The notes under the pieces were generated by a model. That model was not told where the DNA came from. It ran no database searches and saw only the letters and a program-made list of their open reading frames with translations. From the NCBI RefSeq assembly GCF_002224485.1, contig NZ_CP022463.1, positions 2,679,990 through 2,743,989 on the forward strand: a stretch of 64,000 nt of DNA. The letters are read 5' to 3'. The position numbers were made by a program, and so were the translations under genes. Within the stretch, counting starts at the first letter, position 1; the number at the start of each line of letters is the position of its first letter. Origin of the DNA: Sinomonas sp. R1AF57 (GTDB lineage: Bacteria > Actinomycetota > Actinomycetes > Actinomycetales > Micrococcaceae). This document shows positions 25,769 through 54,077 of this stretch, in pieces.

Positions 25769-25887
25769 GCGCCGAGGTCACCCCCTCTGGCGCCGAAGTC
25801 ACCCCGTGTGGCGCCGAAGTCACCCCTTGTCGAGCGCCCAGAACTGGCACCGGGGTGACCTCGCGCCCACACGGGGTGATGTCGGCG
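25769..25887. repeat. 21-bp-pitch repeat, three direct and two inverted copies
   Basis: GCGCCGAAGTCACCCC or a one-base variant stands at 25769, 25790 and 25811, exactly 21 bp apart. The reverse complement core GGGGTGA recurs at 25852 and 25873, again 21 bp apart. The block fills the 145-base gap between two converging genes, pucR-type and fprA copy 2. It can fold into a long stem and may end both transcripts, but the strict pitch is not expected of a simple terminator. Confidence 0.8.
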
Positions 25888-25899
25888 GAGGTGGTGGGG

Positions 25900-27403: not shown

Positions 27404-27435
27404 AGATGTCGTTATGGGTGCTCAGAACGACATCT
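27404..27435. repeat. Isolated 10-bp inverted repeat at the end of the siroheme synthase gene
   Basis: AGATGTCGTT at 27404-27413 is exactly complementary in reverse to AACGACATCT at 27426-27435, with a 12-bp loop. It covers the stop codon of the siroheme synthase gene and the gap to fprA copy 2. It could be an attenuating or stabilising hairpin in a shared transcript or a dispersed palindromic element. There is no T-run. Confidence 0.55.
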
Positions 27436-28681
27436 ACGGAGCAGTCGATGACAGGTGGGGGGCGCGGGCGCGGCGAAGGTCCGAGGGCGCGTACGGGCTC
27501 ACGCGCACGACGTCGCCAATGACGATCACGGCCGGGTTCGCGACTCCGACGGCGCGGGCCCGATCTACGATCGTACCCAGTGTCGCGATGGTGACGCGCT
27601 GCTCCGGTGTCCAGCCGCGCTCGACGATCGCGACCGGCGTCGTGCCGGCCAGGCCGCGGGAGCGCAGGACGGCGACGGAGTCGGCCAGCCGGCGCACGCC
27701 CATGAGCAGGACGATCGTGTGGTCGGGCCGGGCGGGCAGCTCGGCGAGCTCGTCGTGGCCGGTCGCGACCGAGAAGCCGGTGGCGAGGCCCCGGTGCGTG
27801 ACCGGGATCCCGGCGGCGGCGGGGACGGAGACGGCGCTCGTGACGCCGGGCACCACCTCGACGTCGACGCCATGGCGCCGGCAGTACTCGGCCTCCTCGC
27901 CCCCGCGGCCCAGGACGTACGGGTCGCCGCCCTTGAGCCGCACGACGACGTTCCCGGCCGTCGCCTCGCGCACGAGGATCTCGTTGATCTCGTGCTGCGT
28001 GGCCTGGTGCGCGCCGGGGGCCTTGCCGACCTCGATGACGCGCACGGAGTCGGAGAGCTCGGCCAGGAGGCCGCGCGGGCCGAGCCTGTCGGCCACGACG
28101 ACGTCGGCCTCGGCCAGGAGCTGGCGGCCGCGGACGGTGATGAGCCCCTCGGCGCCGGGGCCGCCGCCCACGAGGGACACGCGTCCGGCCGGGGAGGGCG
28201 CGCGGTGGCGCCGCAGCGGCAGCTTGCCCTCGCGGAGCGCGGAAACGATCGCGTCCTTGAGCGCCTTGGCCCGCCGCGGGTCTCCCCCGGCGTTCACGGC
28301 GACGGTGACGTCGTCCACCCGGGCCGTCGCAGGGGTCCACGCCGCGGAGGCTTCGTGGTCCGCGGCGTTGACGCACCAGATGCGGCGCTCCTCCGCCTCG
28401 GCGGCCACGCGGGCATCCACGCCGGGCACGCCGGTCGCGGTCTGGACGAACCACACGCCGTCGAGGTCGCGCGTCTCGTACCCGCGGCGCACCCACGCGA
28501 CGAGTCCCGCCTCGGCCAGGCGCACGACGTCGTGCCCCGCCTCGGGCGCCACGACGGTCACCTTCGCGCCGGCGTCGAGCAGGCCCTGCGCGCGTCGCGC
28601 GGCGACCTTGCCGCCGCCGACGACGAGCACGTCCCGCCCGAGGAGGCGCAGCGAGGTGGGGTACAGGTCGATGCCGCTCAT
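27434..28681 (-). CDS. Siroheme synthase: precorrin-2 dehydrogenase fused to uroporphyrinogen-III methyltransferase
   Basis: A 415-residue bifunctional cytosolic enzyme. Residues about 5-150 form a SirC/Met8-like NAD domain (RDVLVVGGGKVAARRAQGLL) that oxidises precorrin-2. Residues about 165-400 form the SUMT (CobA) domain, beginning VSLVGGGPGAEGLITVRG and containing VVRLKGGDPYVLGRGGEEAEY and GVTSAVSVPAAAGIPVTHR, which methylates uroporphyrinogen III. Iron insertion may be done by the CbiX protein at 43680. Its start overlaps the ABC permease stop by 4 bases, so siroheme supply is coupled to sulfur uptake. Confidence 0.92.
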   Translation of the reverse strand: MSGIDLYPTSLRLLGRDVLVVGGGKVAARRAQGLLDAGAKVTVVAPEAGHDVVRLAEAGLVAWVRRGYETRDLDGVWFVQTATGVPGVDARVAAEAEERRIWCVNAADHEASAAWTPATARVDDVTVAVNAGGDPRRAKALKDAIVSALREGKLPLRRHRAPSPAGRVSLVGGGPGAEGLITVRGRQLLAEADVVVADRLGPRGLLAELSDSVRVIEVGKAPGAHQATQHEINEILVREATAGNVVVRLKGGDPYVLGRGGEEAEYCRRHGVDVEVVPGVTSAVSVPAAAGIPVTHRGLATGFSVATGHDELAELPARPDHTIVLLMGVRRLADSVAVLRSRGLAGTTPVAIVERGWTPEQRVTIATLGTIVDRARAVGVANPAVIVIGDVVRVSPYAPSDLRRARAPHLSSTAP

Positions 28682-36730: not shown

Positions 36731-36998
36731 GTCTTCCCCCTAGGAACCTTATGGATACGCCGCCGACGGCCCCACGCCGGCGGTCGGCTGTATCACAACT
36801 ATGGTGCTCCGGCGTCTGGGACGACACAACAACTTTTCAACATGGCCGCTGTTATCAACGACTGAAGTGGACTAGTCGGGATGCCCTAGGCCAGCGTTAC
36901 AGAGATGGTTATGGGGTCCCGTCCGGAGATCCGCCCGGGTCGTACCAACTCGCAGATGCAGACGCCGCCGCCACCGGCGAAGGTGGGCGGGCGCCGTC
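36731..36998. other. AT-richer intergenic stretch without a convincing gene
   Basis: The 268 bases upstream of the DUF4190-like gene share its lower GC. They contain one short inverted repeat (GCCGCCGAC... near 36770, partly matched by CCGGCGGTCGGC) and no ribosome-binding-site-led reading frame that looks conserved. It probably carries the promoter of the 36065-36730 gene and the junction of the foreign-looking segment with the repeat array. Confidence 0.5.
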
Positions 36999-37431
36999 GT
37001 GGTGTGGTTTCGACTCCGCTTCGCTGCGCTCAACCAGCGGCGGTTGAGCCGTGGTGTGGTTTCGACTCCGCTTCGCTCCGCTCAACCAGCGGCGGTTGAG
37101 CCGTGGTGTGGTTTCGACTCCGCTTCGCTCCGCTCAACCAGCGGCGCGGTTGAGTCGTGGTGTGGTTTCGACTCCGCTTCGCTCCGCTCAACCAGCGGCG
37201 CGGTTGAGTCGTGGTGTGGTTTCGACTCCGCTCCGCTCCGCTCAACCAGCGGCGCGGTTGAGTCGTGGTGTGGTTTCGACTCCGCTTCGCTCCGCTCAAC
37301 CAGCGGCGCGGTTGAGTCGTGGTGTGGTTTCGACTCCGCTTCGCTCAACCAGCGGCGGTTGAGCCGTGGTGTGGTTCCCACTCCGCTTCGCTCCGCTCAA
37401 CCAGCGGCGGTTGAGCGGAGCCGAAACCCTA
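36999..37431. repeat. Eight-unit palindromic repeat array behind cysN
   Basis: GTGGTGTGGTT begins a unit at 36999, 37051, 37103, 37157, 37211, 37265, 37319 and 37366, giving steps of 52, 52, 54, 54, 54, 54 and 47 bases. Each unit holds TTTCGACTCCGCTTCGCT and a stem CTCAACC-AGCGGC-GGTTGAG. The array ends in GGTTGAGCGGAGCCGAAACC, immediately touching the cysN stop codon at 37429-37431. Units 4-7 carry a 2-base GC addition in the loop. There are no unique spacers, so it is not CRISPR. Strong serial hairpins here would act as a terminator or RNA stabiliser for the cys operon. Confidence 0.93.
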
Positions 37432-38835
37432 GATCCAGTACCGCTCGTCCTCGGTGTCCCCGGGGTGCTGCCGGACCATGCCGGCGGCAAGGGTGTTGCC
37501 GTCCTGCGGGTCGACCACGAGGAACGCCCCGGTGCGGCGATGGGTCGCGTACGGCTCGAGCGGCAGCGGGGCGGCCAGACGGATCTGGACCTCGCCGATG
37601 TCGTTGAGCGCGAGCTCGGAGGCTGGCGCGACCGCGAACGTGTCGAGGTCCAGCTTGCCGCTGACGGCCCGCACGAGCCCGCGGACGGTCGAGGTCCCGT
37701 GCTTCACGAGCACCTTCGCGCCCTCGCGCAGCGGCTTCGAGGACAGCCACGCGAGCGACCCGTACAGGTCCGCCGTGCTCTCGGGGAGCGTCCCGGCGGC
37801 GGCGATCGTGTCGCCGCGGGAGACGTCGAACTCGTCGGCGAGGCGCAGCGCGACGGACTGCGGCGCGGCGGCCTCAGTCAGCGTCTGACCGGCGACGTCG
37901 ATCCCCACCACCGTGGTCTCGCGGGCGGCCTGGCCCGGGGTCACCACGGCGACGCGGTCGCCCACGCGCACGACGCCCTCGGTCACCTGGCCTGCGTACG
38001 CGCGGTAGTCGCGGAACGCCTCCTCGTCCAGGCCCGGCGCGAGCGCGCCCTGCGGCCGGATCACCGTCTGGACGGGGAAGCGGAACGCCTCATGCTCGTC
38101 GTCGAGCTCGTCCGTGCTCGGCAGCGACTCGAGCAGCTCGATGAGCGTCGGCCCCGAGTACCACGGGGTGCGGTCGGAGCGGTCCACGACGTTGTCGCCG
38201 TCGAGCGCGGACACCGGCACCGCCACGGCCTCGCGGAGGCCGAGCTCGGAAGCCAGCCGCGCGACGTCGGCCGCGATCTCGGTGTAGACGGACTCGGAGA
38301 AGTCGACGAGGTCGATCTTGTTCACCGCGACCACGACGTGCGGCACCCGCAGGAGCGCCGCGACGGAGAGGTGCCGCCGGGTCTGCTCGAGGACGCCCTT
38401 GCGCGCGTCGATGAGCAGCACGACGGCGTCGGCGGTGGAAGCGCCGGTGACCGTGTTCTTCGTGTACTGCACGTGGCCGGGGCAGTCCGCGAGGATGAAG
38501 GTGCGGCGGTCGGTCGCGAAGTAGCGGTAGGCGACGTCGATCGTGATGCCCTGCTCGCGCTCGGCGCGCAGGCCGTCAGTCAGCAGCGCGAGGTCCAGAC
38601 GGCGAGTTCCTTCGGCCTTCTCCCCGCCGAAGCCGCGCGCCTCGGAAGTCCGCGCGACGGCGTCGAGCTGGTCGGCGAGGATCGCCTTGGAGTCGTGCAG
38701 GAGCCTTCCGACCAGAGTGGACTTGCCGTCGTCGACGCTCCCGGCGGTCGCGAAGCGGAAGAGGGTGCCCTCGGTCAGGGTGGTCTCGGCAGCCTTGGTT
38801 TCGGCGAGCTCAGCCGGCGGAATCGGCGTGTTCAT
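37429..38835 (-). CDS. cysN: Sulfate adenylyltransferase subunit 1 (GTPase)
   Basis: A 468-residue GTPase subunit of ATP sulfurylase, which with CysD makes APS from sulfate and ATP. The G1 motif is GSVDDGKST at residues 32-40. G3 is DCPGHVQYTKN, and G4 is NKIDLVD. Elongation-factor-like barrel domains follow. No C-terminal APS kinase domain is fused, consistent with direct APS reduction by CysH. Its start overlaps the cysD stop by one base (TGATG). The stop codon abuts the palindromic repeat array. Confidence 0.96.
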   Translation of the reverse strand: MNTPIPPAELAETKAAETTLTEGTLFRFATAGSVDDGKSTLVGRLLHDSKAILADQLDAVARTSEARGFGGEKAEGTRRLDLALLTDGLRAEREQGITIDVAYRYFATDRRTFILADCPGHVQYTKNTVTGASTADAVVLLIDARKGVLEQTRRHLSVAALLRVPHVVVAVNKIDLVDFSESVYTEIAADVARLASELGLREAVAVPVSALDGDNVVDRSDRTPWYSGPTLIELLESLPSTDELDDEHEAFRFPVQTVIRPQGALAPGLDEEAFRDYRAYAGQVTEGVVRVGDRVAVVTPGQAARETTVVGIDVAGQTLTEAAAPQSVALRLADEFDVSRGDTIAAAGTLPESTADLYGSLAWLSSKPLREGAKVLVKHGTSTVRGLVRAVSGKLDLDTFAVAPASELALNDIGEVQIRLAAPLPLEPYATHRRTGAFLVVDPQDGNTLAAGMVRQHPGDTEDERYWI

Positions 38836-42474: not shown

Positions 42475-43683
42475 TCACTTCCCGCTGAACGAGGTCCACG
42501 GGTGGGTCGCACCGTAGCGCATGAGCCACACGGCCAGCCCCGCGCACACCGCGTACCCGGCGCCCACGGCGAGCCACCCGGCGTCGAACGTTCCCGTCGC
42601 GTCGGCGAGCACGCCCATCATGAGCGGGCCGAGCGCGAAGCCCGTGTACATCCCGGCCGCGAGGACGCCCGACGCCGCGCCGATACGCTCGCGGGGCACG
42701 ACGACGAGCACGGCCGCGTTCATGATGACGTTCGCCCCCAGCACGGTCGCCCCGTGCAGGGCCACACCGACCCACAGGAGCGCCGGCACGTCCCACGCAC
42801 CGGCCGCGAGCAGGCAGAGCACACCCACGATGGCCCCCGCCGCGAGAGTGAGGAGCAGCACCGACGGCCGTGCTCCGAGGGCCATCCGCCGCCCCCAGAC
42901 GATGCGGGAGGAGACGCCCACGATCCCGGAGACGCCGGCCGCGGCCCCCGCGAGGACGAGGGGGAAGTCCAGCTCGCGCACGGCGAAGAGCGGCAGGTAG
43001 ACATTGGTGGCCTGCATGCCCATGCCCGCGAAGAAGGCGAACCCGGCGAAGAGCCAGACCGGGAACGGGAGTCGGCCGCCGTGGGCGCGCGCCGCCGTCG
43101 TGCGCGCTGCGGCGGAGTCCCCCGGCACTGTGGCGAGCCCGTACGCGAGGAGGGCCGCCGCGATCACGGCGGTGAGGCCGAACGACCACTGCCAGCCCAG
43201 CCACAGGGCGACCGCCGGGAAGAACAGGCCGGCGAACAGCTGGCTCGCCTGCACCCCGGACTGCTTGATGCCGATCCAGCCGGGCCGCTTCGCCTGCGGG
43301 ACCGAGGCGACGATGACCCGGTTTGTGGTCGGATTGGAGATCGCCTGCGACGGGCCGGCGAGGATGACCGCGACGAGCAGCACCCAGAAGCTGTGGGCGA
43401 GCGCCGCGATCACGAGCGCGAGCACGGTGCCGCCGAAGATCAGGACCAGCTGCGTGCGGGTCGTCGCGCGGTCGCTGAGCCGGCCGAGGGAGAAGCTGCT
43501 CACGGCCGCCGACGCGAAGACGGCCCCCGCCAGGAGGCCGAACTGCGACTGGGTGATGCCGAGGTCGGCGATGATGAGCGGGCTGAGCGCGCTCATGCCG
43601 TAGTTGAGCAGCGGGCCGACCCCCATGGCGCAGACGAGGACGAACAGGAGGGCCGCGGACGGCCCCTTGGTCTGCTGCGTCAC
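42475..43683 (-). CDS. MFS transporter in the sulfate assimilation locus
   Basis: A 402-residue 12-helix major facilitator carrier. It opens MGVGPLLNYGMSALSPLIIADLGITQSQFGLLAGA, and the loop 2-3 motif reads GRLSDRATTR. It belongs to the CynX/NarK-like group that moves small anions or organic acids. The GTG start overlaps the chelatase stop by 4 bases, and sir starts about 110 bases downstream. Position suggests sulfate, sulfite or a related anion, but this is inference. Confidence 0.85.
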   Translation of the reverse strand: MTQQTKGPSAALLFVLVCAMGVGPLLNYGMSALSPLIIADLGITQSQFGLLAGAVFASAAVSSFSLGRLSDRATTRTQLVLIFGGTVLALVIAALAHSFWVLLVAVILAGPSQAISNPTTNRVIVASVPQAKRPGWIGIKQSGVQASQLFAGLFFPAVALWLGWQWSFGLTAVIAAALLAYGLATVPGDSAAARTTAARAHGGRLPFPVWLFAGFAFFAGMGMQATNVYLPLFAVRELDFPLVLAGAAAGVSGIVGVSSRIVWGRRMALGARPSVLLLTLAAGAIVGVLCLLAAGAWDVPALLWVGVALHGATVLGANVIMNAAVLVVVPRERIGAASGVLAAGMYTGFALGPLMMGVLADATGTFDAGWLAVGAGYAVCAGLAVWLMRYGATHPWTSFSGK

Positions 43684-44402
43684 CTCGCCTCCGCGATGGC
43701 CGCGTCGTAGCGGTCGAGGGCGATCTGCGCGATGACCTCCGAGGGCAGCAGCGGCGCCGTGACGGCGTCCGCCCCGGCCTTGGCGAGCTGGTCGTGGAAG
43801 TAGCCCGGCGCAAGGAGGTAGGACGCGATGACGACGCGCACGCCGTCGCCCGCCGTGCCGTCCGCGGCGGTGGTGGCCTCCTCGGCGCGCAGCTCGGCGA
43901 CGGCCTCGGGGACGGTCGGGGAGGCGCTGGCCCCGTAGCCCGGCAGGATGCGGTTCGGGATGCGGTGCCGGAGCATGTCGGCGAGGCGCTCGACGTCCGC
44001 CGCCGCCTCGGGGTTGCTCGACCCGGCGGCGGCGAGCACGACGGCGTCGTCCGCTCCCAGCCCCGCCTCGCCGAGGCGCTGGGCGAGGAGGCCGGCGAGC
44101 CGCTCGTCGGGGCCCAGCGGGCCCGCGCTCAGGGTGCCGGGCCGGGAGGCGGCGGCCTTCGCGATGTCGACGCGCACGTGGTACCCGACGCTGAGCAGGA
44201 GGGGCACGACGACGGCGCGCGCCCCCTCGGGGAGGCCCGCCACCACCTCGGGAAGCTCGGGGCCGTGCACATCCACGTAGGCGTCGAGCACAGACAGCTC
44301 CGGGCGTGCCGCGCGGATCTGGTCGACGGCCGCGAGGATGGCCGCCCGCCCCTCCGCACTGCTGGTGCCGTGGGCGCACGCCACGAGGATGTCTTGGGTC
44401 AT
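43680..44402 (-). CDS. Sirohydrochlorin chelatase, CbiX family
   Basis: A 240-residue chelatase with two CbiX half-domains. The first has LVACAHGTSSAEGRAAI, with the metal-site histidine near residue 11, and VVVPLLLSVGYHVRVDI near residue 70. The second has VVLAAAGSSNPEA and VVIASYLLAPGYFHDQL. Inserting iron into sirohydrochlorin completes siroheme for the downstream sulfite reductase. It is the first gene of the cluster and divergent from a SUKH-like gene. Confidence 0.92.
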   Translation of the reverse strand: MTQDILVACAHGTSSAEGRAAILAAVDQIRAARPELSVLDAYVDVHGPELPEVVAGLPEGARAVVVPLLLSVGYHVRVDIAKAAASRPGTLSAGPLGPDERLAGLLAQRLGEAGLGADDAVVLAAAGSSNPEAAADVERLADMLRHRIPNRILPGYGASASPTVPEAVAELRAEEATTAADGTAGDGVRVVIASYLLAPGYFHDQLAKAGADAVTAPLLPSEVIAQIALDRYDAAIAEAR

Positions 44403-44473
44403 GGGGGGAGCCTACTCCCGGGGCTGTTTACGCCGCCGAAACGTGCGCCGGGGGCGCGACTAGGATGAGCAGC

Positions 44474-44905
44474 ATGAACGAGATGTTCCTGGAGAAGTTC
44501 CGTGCGCTTGTCCCCAAGTACCTCGAGGATCCCTGGCAGCCGGCAGACGGCCTCTCGGAGGACGAGCTCGATGCGGCGCTCGAAGAGCATGCGTTCACGA
44601 TCCCGCTGGTCCTGCGCGAGTTCTACCTCGCGCTCGGCGGCTCCGAGCTCATGGAGGCGTACCACTACTTCTGGGACCCCGAGGAGCTCGAGATCGACGA
44701 GGAGGGGTTCCTCATGTTCCTCGAGGACGAGGAGGAGCAGTTCACCTGGGGCTTCCGCGCCGGGGACCTGCGCGTCCCAGACCCGATCGTCTACCGCAAG
44801 AACAACGCCCGCGGCGAGTGGGTGTCGGAGGACGGCACCTTCTCCGAGTTCACCTTCGACATGTTCGAGTGGGTCTTCAGCGAGGACGACGAGCAGGCCG
44901 ACTGA
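44474..44905 (+). CDS. SUKH (SMI1/KNR4)-like small acidic protein
   Basis: A 143-residue, strongly acidic cytosolic protein. FTIPLVLREFYLALGGSELMEAYHYFWDPEELEI and WGFRAGDLRVPDP follow the general SUKH pattern (proline, aromatic, GG, W/F-rich), though the match is distant. SUKH proteins often serve as immunity proteins to polymorphic toxins, or as orphan regulators; no toxin gene is adjacent. The ATG at 44474 is preferred over 44465 because AGGATGAG sits at normal spacing. A possible small RNA and a DUF559-type gene follow. Confidence 0.6.
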   Translation: MNEMFLEKFRALVPKYLEDPWQPADGLSEDELDAALEEHAFTIPLVLREFYLALGGSELMEAYHYFWDPEELEIDEEGFLMFLEDEEEQFTWGFRAGDLRVPDPIVYRKNNARGEWVSEDGTFSEFTFDMFEWVFSEDDEQAD

Positions 44906-45037
44906 CGGGCCGGCTACCGTCCAGTAACCGTTCTGAAAACTGATTTACGTCTATCACTGGACTTTTTACAGATCTGTCATATGCTTGTTCATGGGTTCAC
45001 TACTAGCCTCCAGTGAATCCGGGTGCGAACGGAAAAC

Positions 45038-45073
45038 GGCCCCGGGAATCGGCAGAAGCCGAGTCCCGGGGCC
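45038..45073 (+). terminator. Hairpin terminator
   Basis: GGCCCCGGGAATCGGC pairs with GCCGAGTCCCGGGGCC (one mismatch region) around an AGAA loop, followed by ACCCGTTTAA. It could end the SUKH-like mRNA or a small RNA started near 44990. Confidence 0.75.
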
Positions 45074-45091
45074 ACCCGTTTAAGGGGTCCC

Positions 45092-45132
45092 GTTGAGGGG
45101 TCATATCCCCGCGTTGAGGGGTCATGTCCCTG
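45092..45132. repeat. Left arm: two 21-bp-pitch repeats
   Basis: GTTGAGGGGTCATATCCCC at 45092 and GTTGAGGGGTCATGTCCCTG at 45113 stand 21 bp apart, about 110 bases before the DUF559-type gene. Exact inverse copies lie on the far side of that gene. Confidence 0.88.
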
Positions 45133-45241
45133 GACGAAGCGCTGTGGAGGACAAGAGGGACTTCCCCGGGATGCCGGGGGCTAGCAGCGAGCCTGTGGAT
45201 AACTCAGAGCAGGAACTGGGAATCGGTGCCACGATGCGGCC

Positions 45242-46165
45242 ATGACCACGCCCACTGCCCTCGAGCTTCTGCTCAGCAAACCATTCACCTCAGTCGACGC
45301 ACGGCGTCACGGCCTGGACTACTTCGACCTGCTCCGACACGACGTGAGACATGCCAGCCGGGGACTGTACATGCCCGAAGGCGCCGAAACGGCCCTCGTT
45401 GACCGGGTCAGAACGCATCTGGAACTGACTCCGGGGGCGTGGGCGTCACACCGCACAGCCGCTTCACTGTACGGACTATGGCTGCCCCACCATCTCGACG
45501 ACCACTCGATGCTCCACCTCAGCAAACCCGCCCATCTGCCGAGGGTCAGGCGGGAGGGTGTCGTGGGGCACCGTGTCCGAGCACTTGCCGGAGAGGTCCT
45601 CGAGCACGGGCCCGGCGTCCTGGCCAGCTCGCCAGCGAGGACCTGGCTCGAGCTGGCGAATGAGCTCGGGCCCGTGTCACTCGTGGCCTTCGGAGACCAG
45701 CTCATCCGCCAGCCGCGGCCTGACTTCGAGGGCCGCTCGGAGCCCTACACCACCAGGAGTGCCCTCGCCGAGATGCTCCGCGGCCACCCGAAGATGAAAG
45801 GTGTCGCGAAGTGCCGGGCAGCCTTGGAAGACATGCGCGTCGGCGCCGACTCTGTCCCCGAGACCCTCTTACGGCTCTGCCTCCTCGCCCACGGTTTCCC
45901 CGAGCCTGAGCTGCAGATCGTCCTGAAGCCCTCTGACCGTTTCTCGCCCAGCGCCGACATGGGATACCCGGGGATCAAGGTCGCGATCCAGTACGACGGC
46001 GGCCATCACCTCGCCGACGACCAGCGCCGACGCGACGTCCGTCGCGATGCGGCATTCCGCGCCGCGGGATGGTCCGTCATCGTCGTCACCGCGGAAGATG
46101 CCAGAGATGACTTCGCCTGCGTCCGTGCCGAGCTCCGCGCCATCTTCGCCACTCGGGCCGACTAG
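45242..46165 (+). CDS. DUF559-type protein with PD-(D/E)XK nuclease-like C-terminus
   Basis: A 307-residue protein. The N-terminal about 190 residues resemble the winged-helix/AbiEi-like region often joined to DUF559 (FTSVDARRHGLDYFDLLRHD, SRGLYMPEG, SHRTAASLYGLWLP). The C-terminal about 110 residues form a Vsr-like restriction-endonuclease fold: SVPETLLRLCLLAHGFPEPE supplies an acidic residue, then D239, then IQYDGGHH at 249-256 and a final AGWSVIVVT strand. Q250 occupies the usual acidic position, so catalysis is uncertain. It is flanked by paired inverted repeats and follows a SUKH-like gene. It may be defence- or mobility-related; function is not established. Confidence 0.75.
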   Translation: MTTPTALELLLSKPFTSVDARRHGLDYFDLLRHDVRHASRGLYMPEGAETALVDRVRTHLELTPGAWASHRTAASLYGLWLPHHLDDHSMLHLSKPAHLPRVRREGVVGHRVRALAGEVLEHGPGVLASSPARTWLELANELGPVSLVAFGDQLIRQPRPDFEGRSEPYTTRSALAEMLRGHPKMKGVAKCRAALEDMRVGADSVPETLLRLCLLAHGFPEPELQIVLKPSDRFSPSADMGYPGIKVAIQYDGGHHLADDQRRRDVRRDAAFRAAGWSVIVVTAEDARDDFACVRAELRAIFATRAD

Positions 46166-46174
46166 AGCCCCCGG

Positions 46175-46215
46175 CAGGGACATGACCCCTCAACACAGGG
46201 ACATGACCCCTCAAC
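46175..46215. repeat. Right arm: two inverted 21-bp-pitch repeats
   Basis: CAGGGACATGACCCCTCAAC stands at 46175 and again at 46196, 21 bp apart. Both are exact reverse complements of the copy at 45113. The pair begins 10 bases after the DUF559-type stop codon and ends 8 bases before the stop of the convergent polyprenyl synthase gene. Confidence 0.88.
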
Positions 46216-46222
46216 CGCAGGG

Positions 46223-47326
46223 TCAGGCCTGGCGTTCCACCACGGCATCGGCGAAGGCCGCCAGCGAGTCCTTCACGACGCCTGCCGGCAGCGGCTCCAG
46301 GGCGGCCTTCGCGGCGTCGGCCCAGTCCCGCGCCACGGCCCACGCCTGCTCCGTGGCGGGGTGCGCGGCCAGTGCCTCGACGGCCTCGGCCAGGGCATCG
46401 TCGTCCGTGAGGTCACCGTCGACGAGGGCGACGACGCGCGCGGCGGAGGCATCGCCGTCGGCCGCGGCCTGACGCAGCAGCAGCACGGGTAGCGTCGGCA
46501 CCCCTTCGCGGAGGTCGGTCCCGGCGATCTTGCCCGAGGAGGCACGCCCACCGGTGACGTCGATGACGTCGTCGGCGAGCTGGAACGCGACGCCGACCTT
46601 CTCGCCGTACTCCACCAGGACGGACTCGAACTCGGCGGGCGCACCCGAGAAGATCACGCCGAACTGCCCCGAGGCGGCGATGAGCGAACCGGTCTTGTCG
46701 GCCAGGACGGAGATGTAGTGCGCCACGGGGTCCTCGCCCTCGCGGGGCCCGACCGTCTCGTGGAGCTGTCCGAGGCACAGCCGCTCGAACGTGCGCGCCT
46801 GGATGGCGAGCGCGCGGCCGCCGAGGTCGGAGACGAGGATCGAGGCGCGCGCGAAGATGAGGTCGCCGGCGAGGATCGCGACGGTGTTGCCCCATACCTC
46901 GTGCGCGGTAGGCGCCCCACGGCGGTAGGGCGCGGAGTCCATGACGTCATCGTGGTAGAGGGTCGCGAGGTGCGTGAGCTCGACGACTGCGGCGGCCTGC
47001 AGCACCTCGGCCCGCTCCGGGTCGCCGAGGTGGGAGGCGAGGATCGTCAGCAGCGGGCGGATGCGCTTGCCCCCGGCCTCCATGAGGTGCCTGCTGGTCG
47101 CGTCGGCCAGCGGGTCGGAGTTGGAGATGGCCTCGCGGAGGACCTTCTCGACGCGCGCCATGCTCGTGGTGATCGCAGGCCCCAGGACATCGTCCTCGGC
47201 AATCGCGGCAAAGCCGGCAGGCAGCTGCATGCCGACGGCGATCGCCGTGGTGGTGGGGGGCGGCTCGGCGGACTCGGGGCGGCCGTGCCCCGCGTGCGTC
47301 CAGCGGCTGTCTGCAGATTCAGTCAC
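46223..47326 (-). CDS. Long-chain trans-polyprenyl diphosphate synthase (menaquinone side chain)
   Basis: A 367-residue prenyltransferase that elongates allylic diphosphates to the menaquinone tail. The first aspartate-rich motif is TLYHDDVMDSA near residue 128, preceded by GGKRIRPLL. The second is FQLADDVIDVTGG near residue 258. KTGSLIAASGQFG lies between. The GTG start at 47326 avoids overlap with the upstream gene; an ATG at 47365 would overlap it. It follows menJ and menG, as expected for menaquinone synthesis. Chain length cannot be read with confidence. Confidence 0.9.
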   Translation of the reverse strand: MTESADSRWTHAGHGRPESAEPPPTTTAIAVGMQLPAGFAAIAEDDVLGPAITTSMARVEKVLREAISNSDPLADATSRHLMEAGGKRIRPLLTILASHLGDPERAEVLQAAAVVELTHLATLYHDDVMDSAPYRRGAPTAHEVWGNTVAILAGDLIFARASILVSDLGGRALAIQARTFERLCLGQLHETVGPREGEDPVAHYISVLADKTGSLIAASGQFGVIFSGAPAEFESVLVEYGEKVGVAFQLADDVIDVTGGRASSGKIAGTDLREGVPTLPVLLLRQAAADGDASAARVVALVDGDLTDDDALAEAVEALAAHPATEQAWAVARDWADAAKAALEPLPAGVVKDSLAAFADAVVERQA

Positions 47327-47336
47327 GGTCTCAAGC

Positions 47337-48668
47337 CTAGCTTTCGTGGCGCCGCGCGGACGCATCGCGGGGAGGGACGGTGTTGGACGTGGCGGGGACG
47401 AGCGATTCGAGGACCCGGATCGCGGCGTCGGGCAGGGTCCCGCCGGGACGGTCCGTGAGGTTGGCCAGCAGACGGACCACGAACCGCATGAGCGGCGGTA
47501 CCGGCATCCCGGTCGCGAGCGCCGCGCGCATCACGGCGGGGTGCCCGATCAGCGCGGCGAACATGCGGCCGAGCGTGAAGTGGCTGCCCCACTCGCGGCG
47601 CACCCGGTCTGCGTACGCGGCGAGGCGACGGTCGACGTCGGCCGCGTCCGCCCGCGCCCGGCCCGCCGCGCGCTGGGCTGCTGCCGCGTCGACGAGGTAC
47701 TGCGCCGCGAAGCGCCCCGACTCCATCGCGTAGGAGATGCCCTCGCCGTTGAACGGGCTCACCATTCCGCCGGCGTCGCCCAGGAGCGCCATGCCGGGGA
47801 CCACATGGGGGGTGCGGTTGAAGCCCATCGGCAGCGCGGCGCCGCGGATCGGACCCACCTGGTTCGCCTCGTCGAAGCCCCACTCCCCCGGCATCCCGGC
47901 AGTCCACTCGCGCAGCACCTGCCGGTAGTCGAGCCTGCCGAACTCCTTGGAGGAGTTCAGGATCCCGAGGCCCACATTGCAGGTCCCGTCGCCCACGCCG
48001 AACACCCACCCGTACCCGGGGAGCGGCTTGCCGTCGGCGCCCGGGAGCTCGAGCCAGCCCTCCATCCAGTCGTCCTCGTGGCGCGGGCTCGTGAAGTACG
48101 TGCGGTAGGCGACACCGAGGGGCCGGTCGTCGCGCTTCGCCAGGCCGCGGGACACGGCGGCGCGGGTCGAGTTGCCGTCGGCGGCGAGGACGACGTCGGC
48201 GCGGAACTCGCGCGTCTCCCCCGTCTTCTTCCCGTCCCCGTCGAGAAGCTGGGCGCGGGCACCCATGACGCGGCCGCCGTCGTCCGTGATGACCTCGGTG
48301 ACCGAGTGCCCCTCGAGGATCTGGGCGCCCGCGGCGCGGGCGTGCTCGGCCAGGGCCTCGTCGAAGCCGAGGCGGGTGCGGATGAGCCCGTAGTCGGGGA
48401 AGTCCCCGAGCGCGGGCCACGGGAGCTCGAGCGTGCGGCCGCCGGCGATGAGGCGCAGGCCGCGGTTGCGGCGCCAGCCGTCCTCGGCGGCATGCGGCAG
48501 GCCGAGGAGCTGCATCTCGCGCACTGCGCGGGGCGTGAGCCCGTCGCCGCAGACCTTCTCCCGCGGGAAGCGGGTCTTCTCGAGGACCGTGACGGGCACG
48601 CCGGAGCGCGCGAGGTAATGGGCAGCGGTCGAGCCGGCAGGGCCGGCCCCGATGACGAGGACCTCCAT
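47337..48668 (-). CDS. menJ: Geranylgeranyl reductase family protein, menaquinone reductase-like
   Basis: A 443-residue FAD enzyme that saturates one isoprene unit of the menaquinone tail in actinobacteria (MenJ of mycobacteria). The FAD motif is VIGAGPAGSTAAHYLARSG near residue 5. KVCGDGLTPRAV near residue 38, and LLGDAGGMVSPFNGEGISYAMESG near residue 290, are diagnostic for the geranylgeranyl reductase family. It lies between menG (10 bases upstream) and the polyprenyl synthase (10 bases downstream), which supports the menaquinone role over archaeal-type lipid or carotenoid functions. Confidence 0.85.
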   Translation of the reverse strand: MEVLVIGAGPAGSTAAHYLARSGVPVTVLEKTRFPREKVCGDGLTPRAVREMQLLGLPHAAEDGWRRNRGLRLIAGGRTLELPWPALGDFPDYGLIRTRLGFDEALAEHARAAGAQILEGHSVTEVITDDGGRVMGARAQLLDGDGKKTGETREFRADVVLAADGNSTRAAVSRGLAKRDDRPLGVAYRTYFTSPRHEDDWMEGWLELPGADGKPLPGYGWVFGVGDGTCNVGLGILNSSKEFGRLDYRQVLREWTAGMPGEWGFDEANQVGPIRGAALPMGFNRTPHVVPGMALLGDAGGMVSPFNGEGISYAMESGRFAAQYLVDAAAAQRAAGRARADAADVDRRLAAYADRVRREWGSHFTLGRMFAALIGHPAVMRAALATGMPVPPLMRFVVRLLANLTDRPGGTLPDAAIRVLESLVPATSNTVPPRDASARRHES

Positions 48669-53685: not shown

Positions 53686-53899
53686 ATCTCTACCTTTACT
53701 TGGAGGTACATGTCAGAGGTGCTAGGCGACGTCCCATCCTACCCTTGACCAGGGTGCGATGAGATGTGCATCACAGGCAACTTATGTTTCCCTATTGGAC
53801 AACACCCCTGAAGGGTAATCAAGCTCTGTCACGAGGAGGTTTCCGAAATCCCAGACACCCGCCCCATCGGCCGCGAGGCCCCAGCTCCCCCGCCTCCGT

Positions 53900-54065
53900 C
53901 GTTTCGGGTACGCGAACTTCCCCCTTCCGCCGTTTCGGGTACGCGAACTTCCCCCCTCCGCCGTTTCGGGTACGCAGAGGATCCGCCGCGCTAGGACGTC
54001 CCTCCAGGCGGAGCTCCCTCGCGTACCCGAAACGGCACAGGGGCGACTTTGGCGTACCCGAAACG
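53900..54065. repeat. 31-bp-pitch repeat, three direct and two inverted copies
   Basis: CGTTTCGGGTACGC stands at 53900, 53931 and 53962, exactly 31 bp apart. Its reverse complement GCGTACCCGAAACG stands at 54021 and 54052, again 31 bp apart. The block ends 12 bases before the menD stop codon and occupies most of the 393-base gap up to the amino-acid importer. The rest of the gap, 53686-53899, should contain the importer promoter; no further gene is seen. Confidence 0.88.
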
Positions 54066-54077
54066 GCACCCGAGACG

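Follow-up and report, generated by a model that had tools for sequence, protein, structure and literature searches.

Short repeats matched to AbiEi-like, Vsr-type nuclease genes in Sinomonas and its relatives: a candidate nuclease-REP system

What relation joins a gene to the short repeats that frame it, when the repeats on its two sides are inverted copies of each other and further copies lie scattered over the chromosome? The question is raised by a locus at 45092–46215 of the window, by which is meant the whole 64,000-nucleotide stretch of the Sinomonas sp. R1AF57 chromosome analysed here (NZ_CP022463.1, positions 2,679,990 to 2,743,989). The pairing of nuclease gene and repeat is well supported, and the reading favored here, at a probability of about 60 per cent, is of a nuclease-REP system that resembles a REPtron (REP sequences with their TnpA-REP, or RAYT) but in which the enzyme is unrelated.

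A framed nuclease gene

The features of the locus are the following.

45092–45111, forward strand: left arm, repeat copy 1, window type, two mismatches against the 20-mer
45113–45132, forward strand: left arm, repeat copy 2, window type
45242–46165, forward strand: nuclease gene, 307 amino acids, with a predicted AbiEi-like N-terminal and a predicted Vsr/I-Bth0305I-like (DUF559/MTES_1575) C-terminal region
45284–45664, forward strand: AbiEi antitoxin profile match (residues 15–141, E 6.5e-6), fold match 6y8q
45839–46159, forward strand: predicted nuclease domain (about residues 200–306, boundaries putative), conserved E207, D239, Q/E250 and R268, fold match 3r3p
46175–46194, reverse strand: right arm, repeat copy 3, exact
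46196–46215, reverse strand: right arm, repeat copy 4, exact

The sequence-only reading, which had described paired inverted repeats of 21-bp pitch around one complete nuclease-like gene, is confirmed: the pitch is 21 bp in both pairs, a single complete ORF (307 aa) lies between the arms, left copy 1 departs from the 20-mer by two mismatches, and both right copies are exact. The left pair ends 109 bases 5′ of the start codon, nine bases separate the end of the stop codon (46165) from the right pair, and the 41-nt arms are 93 per cent complementary. Four repeat matches were observed against a mean of 0.01 in the shuffled window, a number reached in none of 100 shuffles. Rfam returned zero matches up to E 0.1 for the region 43000–48000. 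The stretch 44955–45085, which includes a GC-rich hairpin (GGCCCCGGG...CCCGGGGCC), is a possible small RNA with no Rfam match up to E 0.1; by eye it seems conserved at orthologous sites that lack the cassette as well.

The framed protein is predicted to be a fusion of an AbiEi-like DNA-binding region with a nuclease domain of Vsr/EDxHD type. Its AlphaFold2 model (mean pLDDT 91.6, pTM 0.86), for which the input alignment held 58 rows (the window protein and 57 of 76 stop-free named loci), has as its top Foldseek matches in the PDB the AbiEi antitoxin 6y8q, at E 1.5e-6 but with modest TM-scores of 0.33 and 0.45, and the I-Bth0305I catalytic domain 3r3p, at probability 1.00 and a TM-score on the target of 0.78 but with a weak E of 0.0099. 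PADLOC AbiEi profiles match all seven of the genome's own paralogs over the N-terminal half to two thirds. As to the label DUF559, which had been given to the gene at the outset, 46 of the 58 aligned members match DUF559 at E 0.01 (40 of 58 match MTES_1575) and the paralog at G000:2548431 (G000 being this genome) clears the Pfam cut-off at 25.6 bits, whereas the window protein reaches only 15.6 bits against DUF559 (PF04480; curated cut-off 20.6) and also falls under the cut-off for MTES_1575. NCBIfam profiles gave zero matches to the seven own proteins up to E 0.01. Among 107 proteins of the genus, E207 and R268 are present in every one and D239 in 106, and 99 have E or Q at position 250; judging by the predicted fold, these are probably catalytic residues. 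The nuclease gene is under purifying selection, with dN/dS of 0.10–0.21 over 21 pairs drawn from seven of the nine window-type orthologs.

Framing is a recurrent property of these genes. The framing score used here is the best ungapped inverted match (+1/−2) between the two 300-bp flanks of a gene, a gene being called framed at 16 or more, and with flanks of this length longer or one-sided frames receive low scores. In the genus 29 of 40 genes were framed compared with 1 of 240 shifted positions, and 21 of 60 further, mostly weaker matches were framed as well. Over all 107 genus genes, which are 100 among the matches listed and the seven own genes, the count is 55 against 5 of 318 swapped flanks, the 52 genes under 16 lying mostly among the weaker matches. 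In Arthrobacter, Pseudarthrobacter, Paenarthrobacter and their kin 41 of 68 genes were framed and none of 259 shifted positions, in a Micrococcaceae set whose gene count leaves out 12 Sinomonas loci, shifted positions of one of which (L181) are among the controls. Relatives occur at E 1e-15 in 91 of 118 genomes of the class, and when the best gene was taken from each of the 29 best-scoring of these 91 genomes, 22 of 29 were framed compared with 5 of 812 swapped pairs. Chance framing is ruled out by the shifted and swapped controls, and the link between nuclease and repeats, put forward earlier as an inference, is real. Arms of the window type do occur at many loci that lack a nuclease gene, one half of what had been named beforehand as grounds for suspecting chance, and sometimes lie around TetR or NUDIX genes, but the controls exclude that explanation.

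Paralogs and their cognate repeats

The chromosome of this strain (3.94 Mb, a single contig) holds several members of the family. A search with the window protein gave nine matches, namely the window gene, the two pieces of a broken paralog and six further genes, and a profile search gave 13; across the genus there are 8 to 15 members per genome in all 15 genomes. The seven intact proteins, window and six paralogs, were aligned. Inverted arms or hairpins of differing sequence (CATCGACTGCTCCGTAAGTGTCG, CGTCAAGCCGACAATT, CGTCTCGGGTACGCGAAATC, CGCCGAGGTCACCCC, GTGCTGCC and the window type) flank six of the seven genes on both sides, and the seventh, at 2548431, is flanked on just one side, by an array of the CGCCGAGGTCACCCC kind, a family found also at the paralog at 1997331. 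Framing scores are 32 for the window gene and 25, 8, 29, 20, 43 and 11 for L035, L036, L037, L039, L040 and L041, the 8 of L036 arising because its called ORF (to 2475) overruns its own downstream arm (2462). Around the other PF04480 match in this genome, at 450749 (L002), no arms were seen by eye in the stretch inspected. Broken nuclease paralogs were noted at three loci (L034, L346, L348), split in G000 and partial in G005 and G006.

Repeats that belong with paralogs are also present elsewhere in the window.

25769–25887, strand not assigned: dispersed array of family GCCGAAGTCACCCC, the family adjoining the paralogs at G000:1997331 and 2548431 (compared by eye)
27434–27450, reverse strand: one-mismatch copy of the repeat framing the paralog at G000:253813 (= G000:2707423–2707439)
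53889–54067, strand not assigned: dispersed array of family CCGTTTCGGGTACGCGAA, the family framing the paralog at G000:1074515

The arms of the window gene had been likened to the blocks at 25769–25887 and 53900–54065; these turn out to be different families, each adjoining other paralogs, and a single repeat family behind all three blocks is rejected. The families differ in folding as well: hairpin z is −6.2 for 25769–25890 (the GCCGAAGTCACCCC array) and −13.0 and −10.9 for the long hairpins of the L035-type repeats, whereas folding of the window-type arms is weak (z −0.6 and −2.3). A 49–54-bp unit, GTGGTTTCGACTCCGCTTCGCTCCGCTCAACCAGCGGCG, repeated about nine times in tandem at 36952–37461, is possibly another such repeat family.

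On a tree of the 107 genus proteins, repeat type tracks clades. Among the 63 genes scoring at least 15, with arms counted as shared at 13 or more, the different-genome pairs that share arms number 15/22, 27/89, 10/98, 1/156, 0/101 and 0/1363 by rising protein distance, and same-genome pairs only 1/124. The Spearman correlation over different-genome pairs is −0.26; over all pairs it is −0.257, and 999 all-pair permutations gave nothing lower than −0.125. At up to one mismatch, the window repeat is found in all nine genomes that have the window subfamily and in none of the six that do not. Polyprenyl synthetase identity to the window's own is 87–91 per cent in the nine window-type genomes and 79–83 per cent in the others, so that this co-occurrence tracks an apparent single split of the genus and may stand for one gain or loss.

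The distribution of CATCGACTGCTCCGTAA cuts across that split: it has 14 copies in G000, 11 in G006 and 19 in G012, the only genomes with its cognate subfamily among the tree proteins, one copy each in G001, G005 and G009, and none in the other nine. The patterns for this family and for the window repeat were taken from G000, and counts elsewhere may consequently be low. GTYTCGGGTACGCRWA is confined to the seven genomes of its own subclade, at 1 to 16 copies, with a search pattern that by design omits its sister repeat GTTTCGGGTACGCATC, which is that of G002, G003 and its kin. CTTCTGAAGGTCACC has 82 copies in G002 and 19 in G004, where the cognate genes are L105 and L119. G000, with a broken gene, has 17 and G005, with a truncated one, has 12; repeats thus persist after gene breakage in two genomes. 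G003 has five copies (reversed control 1) and no cognate gene seen among the tree proteins, and the other ten genomes have at most two, the 2 of G001 equalling its reversed control. In another genus of the class TTGATCWTGGAG frames L266, L267, L271 and L283 and is present in 131 copies in G073, 87 in G055, 189 in G089 and 24 in G127, as against 0 to 3 in eight other genomes (reversed control at most 1). Among the 100 TTGATCWTGGAG sites listed for G073 there are 32 pairs of a forward followed by a reverse copy, with a spacing of 47 bp in 21 of them and of 58 bp in 9, and these are REPIN-like dimers. For the most part, then, repeats occur only in genomes that have the matching subfamily.

Dispersed repeats and a fixed gene

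With up to three mismatches the window-arm 18-mer occurs at 79 sites in G000, 26 of them exact, compared with 3 for the reversed control, a count of which part (GTTGCGGGGTCCCGTCCC) may be a related family; at up to one mismatch the window repeat has 48 sites and its reversed control none. The 79 sites fall into 40 clusters, which are singles, tandem pairs mostly of 21–22 bp, and inverted pairs in both orders. Placement was scored at up to one mismatch for 38 clusters of three families at 34 G000 loci, against crude gene calls from codon-position GC: 19 lie between convergent genes, 17 between co-directional genes, none between divergent genes and 2 inside a called ORF, so that 36 of 38 are intergenic by these calls. 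Of the placed clusters, two lie on the flanks of a NUDIX gene and another two on those of an inserted gene that resembles a transposase. Gaps of at least 40 bp in the window are 16 co-directional, 8 convergent and 8 divergent, and the divergent placement of 0/36 clusters compared with 8/32 gaps gives a Fisher p of 0.0014; for 32 of the 36 clusters the distance to a called 3′ end is at most 50 bp. At L328 (G000:1225860–1226895) a transposase-like gene, named by eye and partly masked, lies within an array of the CGTCTCGGGTACGC family.

The gene itself keeps to one site. In all nine genomes it lies between the CbiX/199-aa genes and the polyprenyl synthetase gene. Nuclease and synthetase are on opposite strands in eight of them and share a strand in G008 (G008:C8:57683–59913; L085, L257), where inversion between the inverted arms may have caused the flip. 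The other six genomes have the polyprenyl gene as well, and occupied and empty orthologous sites both exist: in four (L258, L259, L260, L263) the 199-aa gene is just beyond and the nuclease is absent between, and the 1.5 kb examined at L261 and L262 shows neither. No transfer between sites, target-site duplication or clean recent insertion was noticed. At L262 (G007) a long array of another unit, GGGGTTTCGGCGC, stands by the polyprenyl synthetase gene, at the site that the cassette occupies in other genomes. Cassette jumping as a mobile unit is not supported, and the window-type gene behaves as a fixed gene, its repeats as dispersed. The sequence-only suggestion of a gene captured in, or mobilized with, a palindromic repeat finds little support in a site that is the same in nine of nine genomes, though flipped in G008.

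Other genes are found inside such arms. In several genomes, G003 and G004 included, window-type arrays frame a TetR gene that adjoins a carbon–nitrogen hydrolase gene. The TetR match is present at 12 of 13 hydrolase loci (L333–L345; not in G012), in one orientation in seven and the opposite in five, and flanking inverted arrays at some of these loci could have mediated the inversion. The locus has no window-type arms in G006, G007, G012, G013 and G014, and in G001 its arrays are of the GTTGNGGGGTCCCGTCC type. The left TetR-side arrays of seven genomes were each set against the window-type nuclease arms from nine. In four (G002, G004, G008 and G010) the array fitted the arms of its own genome best, the best match being to those of another genome in the other three; for G003 and G011 it was to the very similar repeats of G004 and G010 (own score 39 vs 46 and 38 vs 41), and G005, with an own score of 20 that is below six other genomes, goes against an own-genome rule. 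The NUDIX gene (L315, 2066–2524; G000:615065–615523) has two forward window-type copies on its left and two reverse copies at its 3′ end, its called ORF running through the right pair.

These observations bear on several other explanations. The arms might mobilize any gene that comes to lie between them, as the earlier proposal of composite capture has it, and the same arms do frame TetR in G003 and G004 and NUDIX in G000, with TetR reversed between seven and five genomes and the nuclease flipped in G008, so that inversion between arms may occur. TetR, however, is at one locus with and without window-type arms and the nuclease is at a single site in nine genomes, which makes capture a very improbable account. 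Slightly less credit still is due to hitchhiking, in which the repeats are spread by another enzyme, for example a RAYT, and the nuclease genes just happen to lie in gaps rich in repeats: REP families elsewhere are linked to RAYTs (PMC8266576), but repeat type here tracks nuclease subfamily across genomes, and framing is all but absent at shifted positions of those stretches.

The AbiEi-like region invites two further explanations. It could bind the arms as its own operator, with the dispersed copies as a regulon and the nuclease domain secondary; AbiEi and Rv2827c are described in passages of PMC7319586 as repressing their own promoters through 23-bp inverted repeats, and the left pair is placed 109 bases ahead of the start codon. 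Yet arms also lie 3′ of the stop codon, none of the 36 classified dispersed clusters is between divergent genes, which disfavors a promoter-type regulon, and the predicted active-site residues are invariant or nearly so. Autoregulation is unlikely, if the least so of these alternatives. The regulatory pair of the sequence-only reading is possible at the gene itself, where AbiEi offers a precedent in binding inverted repeats of similar size, but leaves the dispersed copies unexplained. Alternatively, the nuclease might attack incoming DNA, with the repeats serving to mark self or to titrate it. AbiEi belongs to a known phage-defence toxin–antitoxin system (PMC7319586, PMC3985639), and the PADLOC AbiEi profiles match seven of seven own paralogs. 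The neighbors scanned at the window locus are nonetheless an SMI1-like gene (SMI1_KNR4, below cut-off), CbiX, a polyprenyl synthetase and a FAD-binding gene, with no DUF1814 toxin at E 0.001; plasmid or phage carriage is rare (4 of 72,556 plasmid records and 1 of 50,697 phages at E 1e-5); and 8 to 15 members in each of 15 genomes, many with their own repeat, would be odd for defence. A defensive role is improbable, and more so than autoregulation.

A candidate nuclease-REP system

The nuclease-REP reading draws on a close likeness to REPtrons. As three papers describe these (PMC8266576, PMC8049555, PMC3733652), short cognate repeats flank the gene and recur throughout the genome, the gene is mostly single copy and vertically inherited, several gene–repeat pairs can coexist, and the repeats lie chiefly in convergent or co-directional gaps. 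The same RAYT examples illustrate how a dispersed repeat population may be matched to a single-copy gene. The differences are that the enzyme here is AbiEi/Vsr-like by fold and profile rather than an HUH/Y1 tyrosine transposase, that the window 20-mer lacks GTAG, and that the window repeat is a tandem 21-bp unit which folds weakly. With the EDxHD homing endonuclease I-Bth0305I and with Vsr the protein shares a predicted catalytic-domain fold, and with I-Bth0305I, going by passages of PMC3943268, a nuclease with a separate DNA-binding part; unlike a homing endonuclease gene, the window gene has no intron or intein noticed around it and is paired with dispersed repeats. To the AbiEi antitoxin of type IV AbiE the likeness is in the predicted N-terminal fold and sequence profile of this region only, and the 20–21-bp unit is close to the 23-bp inverted repeats of which, in passages of PMC7319586, AbiEi binds two and Rv2827c four; the window protein differs in being joined to a nuclease domain, and the DUF1814 nucleotidyltransferase toxin is absent among the neighbors scanned at the window locus. 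By their description in PMC3733652, the CGTC-tagged REPs are also comparable, being dispersed families with no known dedicated transposase.

The most likely sequence of events can be outlined. A fixed gene (the window type, in nine genomes) encodes the predicted AbiEi-like region and Vsr/EDxHD-type nuclease domain and is framed by a matched short repeat, other copies of which lie close to the 3′ ends of genes, whether singly, in tandem arrays or in inverted pairs. The N-terminal region would recognize the cognate repeat and the C-terminal domain would nick or cut at it, and repair or strand exchange between copies would spread and homogenize the repeat within the genome, as the genome-specific variants suggest. 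After breakage of the gene the repeats linger, as in the two genomes above, and presumably decay. In this way the nuclease may bind, cut and spread its own repeat. A broader form of the proposal extends it to Actinomycetes as a class, as intragenomic replicators in which AbiEi-like targeting and a homing-type nuclease that cuts its own repeat, rather than a transposase, drive both spread and concerted evolution, with many orthogonal pairs per genome; the chances of this are about even.

In the literature on DUF559, REP, RAYT, REPIN and MTES_1575 no such system was found, within a search that left most subscription papers and bioRxiv outside its scope, and a prior description of a nuclease–repeat system of this kind may exist. 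One paper (RepRanger, PMC12306157) gives REP counts for Arthrobacter livingstonensis, and a term search of it found no word starting with 'nuclease' or 'RAYT', a match that would leave out 'endonuclease'.

REPs are present in many bacteria and their spread is said, in PMC8266576, to be poorly understood; the enzymes tied to them in the passages of the literature consulted are HUH transposases. If the nuclease-REP reading is true, a second and unrelated class of enzyme has matched repeats, and the REP lifestyle would have arisen more than once. The orphan repeats of Actinomycetes would gain a partner, many natural pairs of protein and DNA specificity would become available, and the self-copying of repeats would become testable with a simple nuclease.
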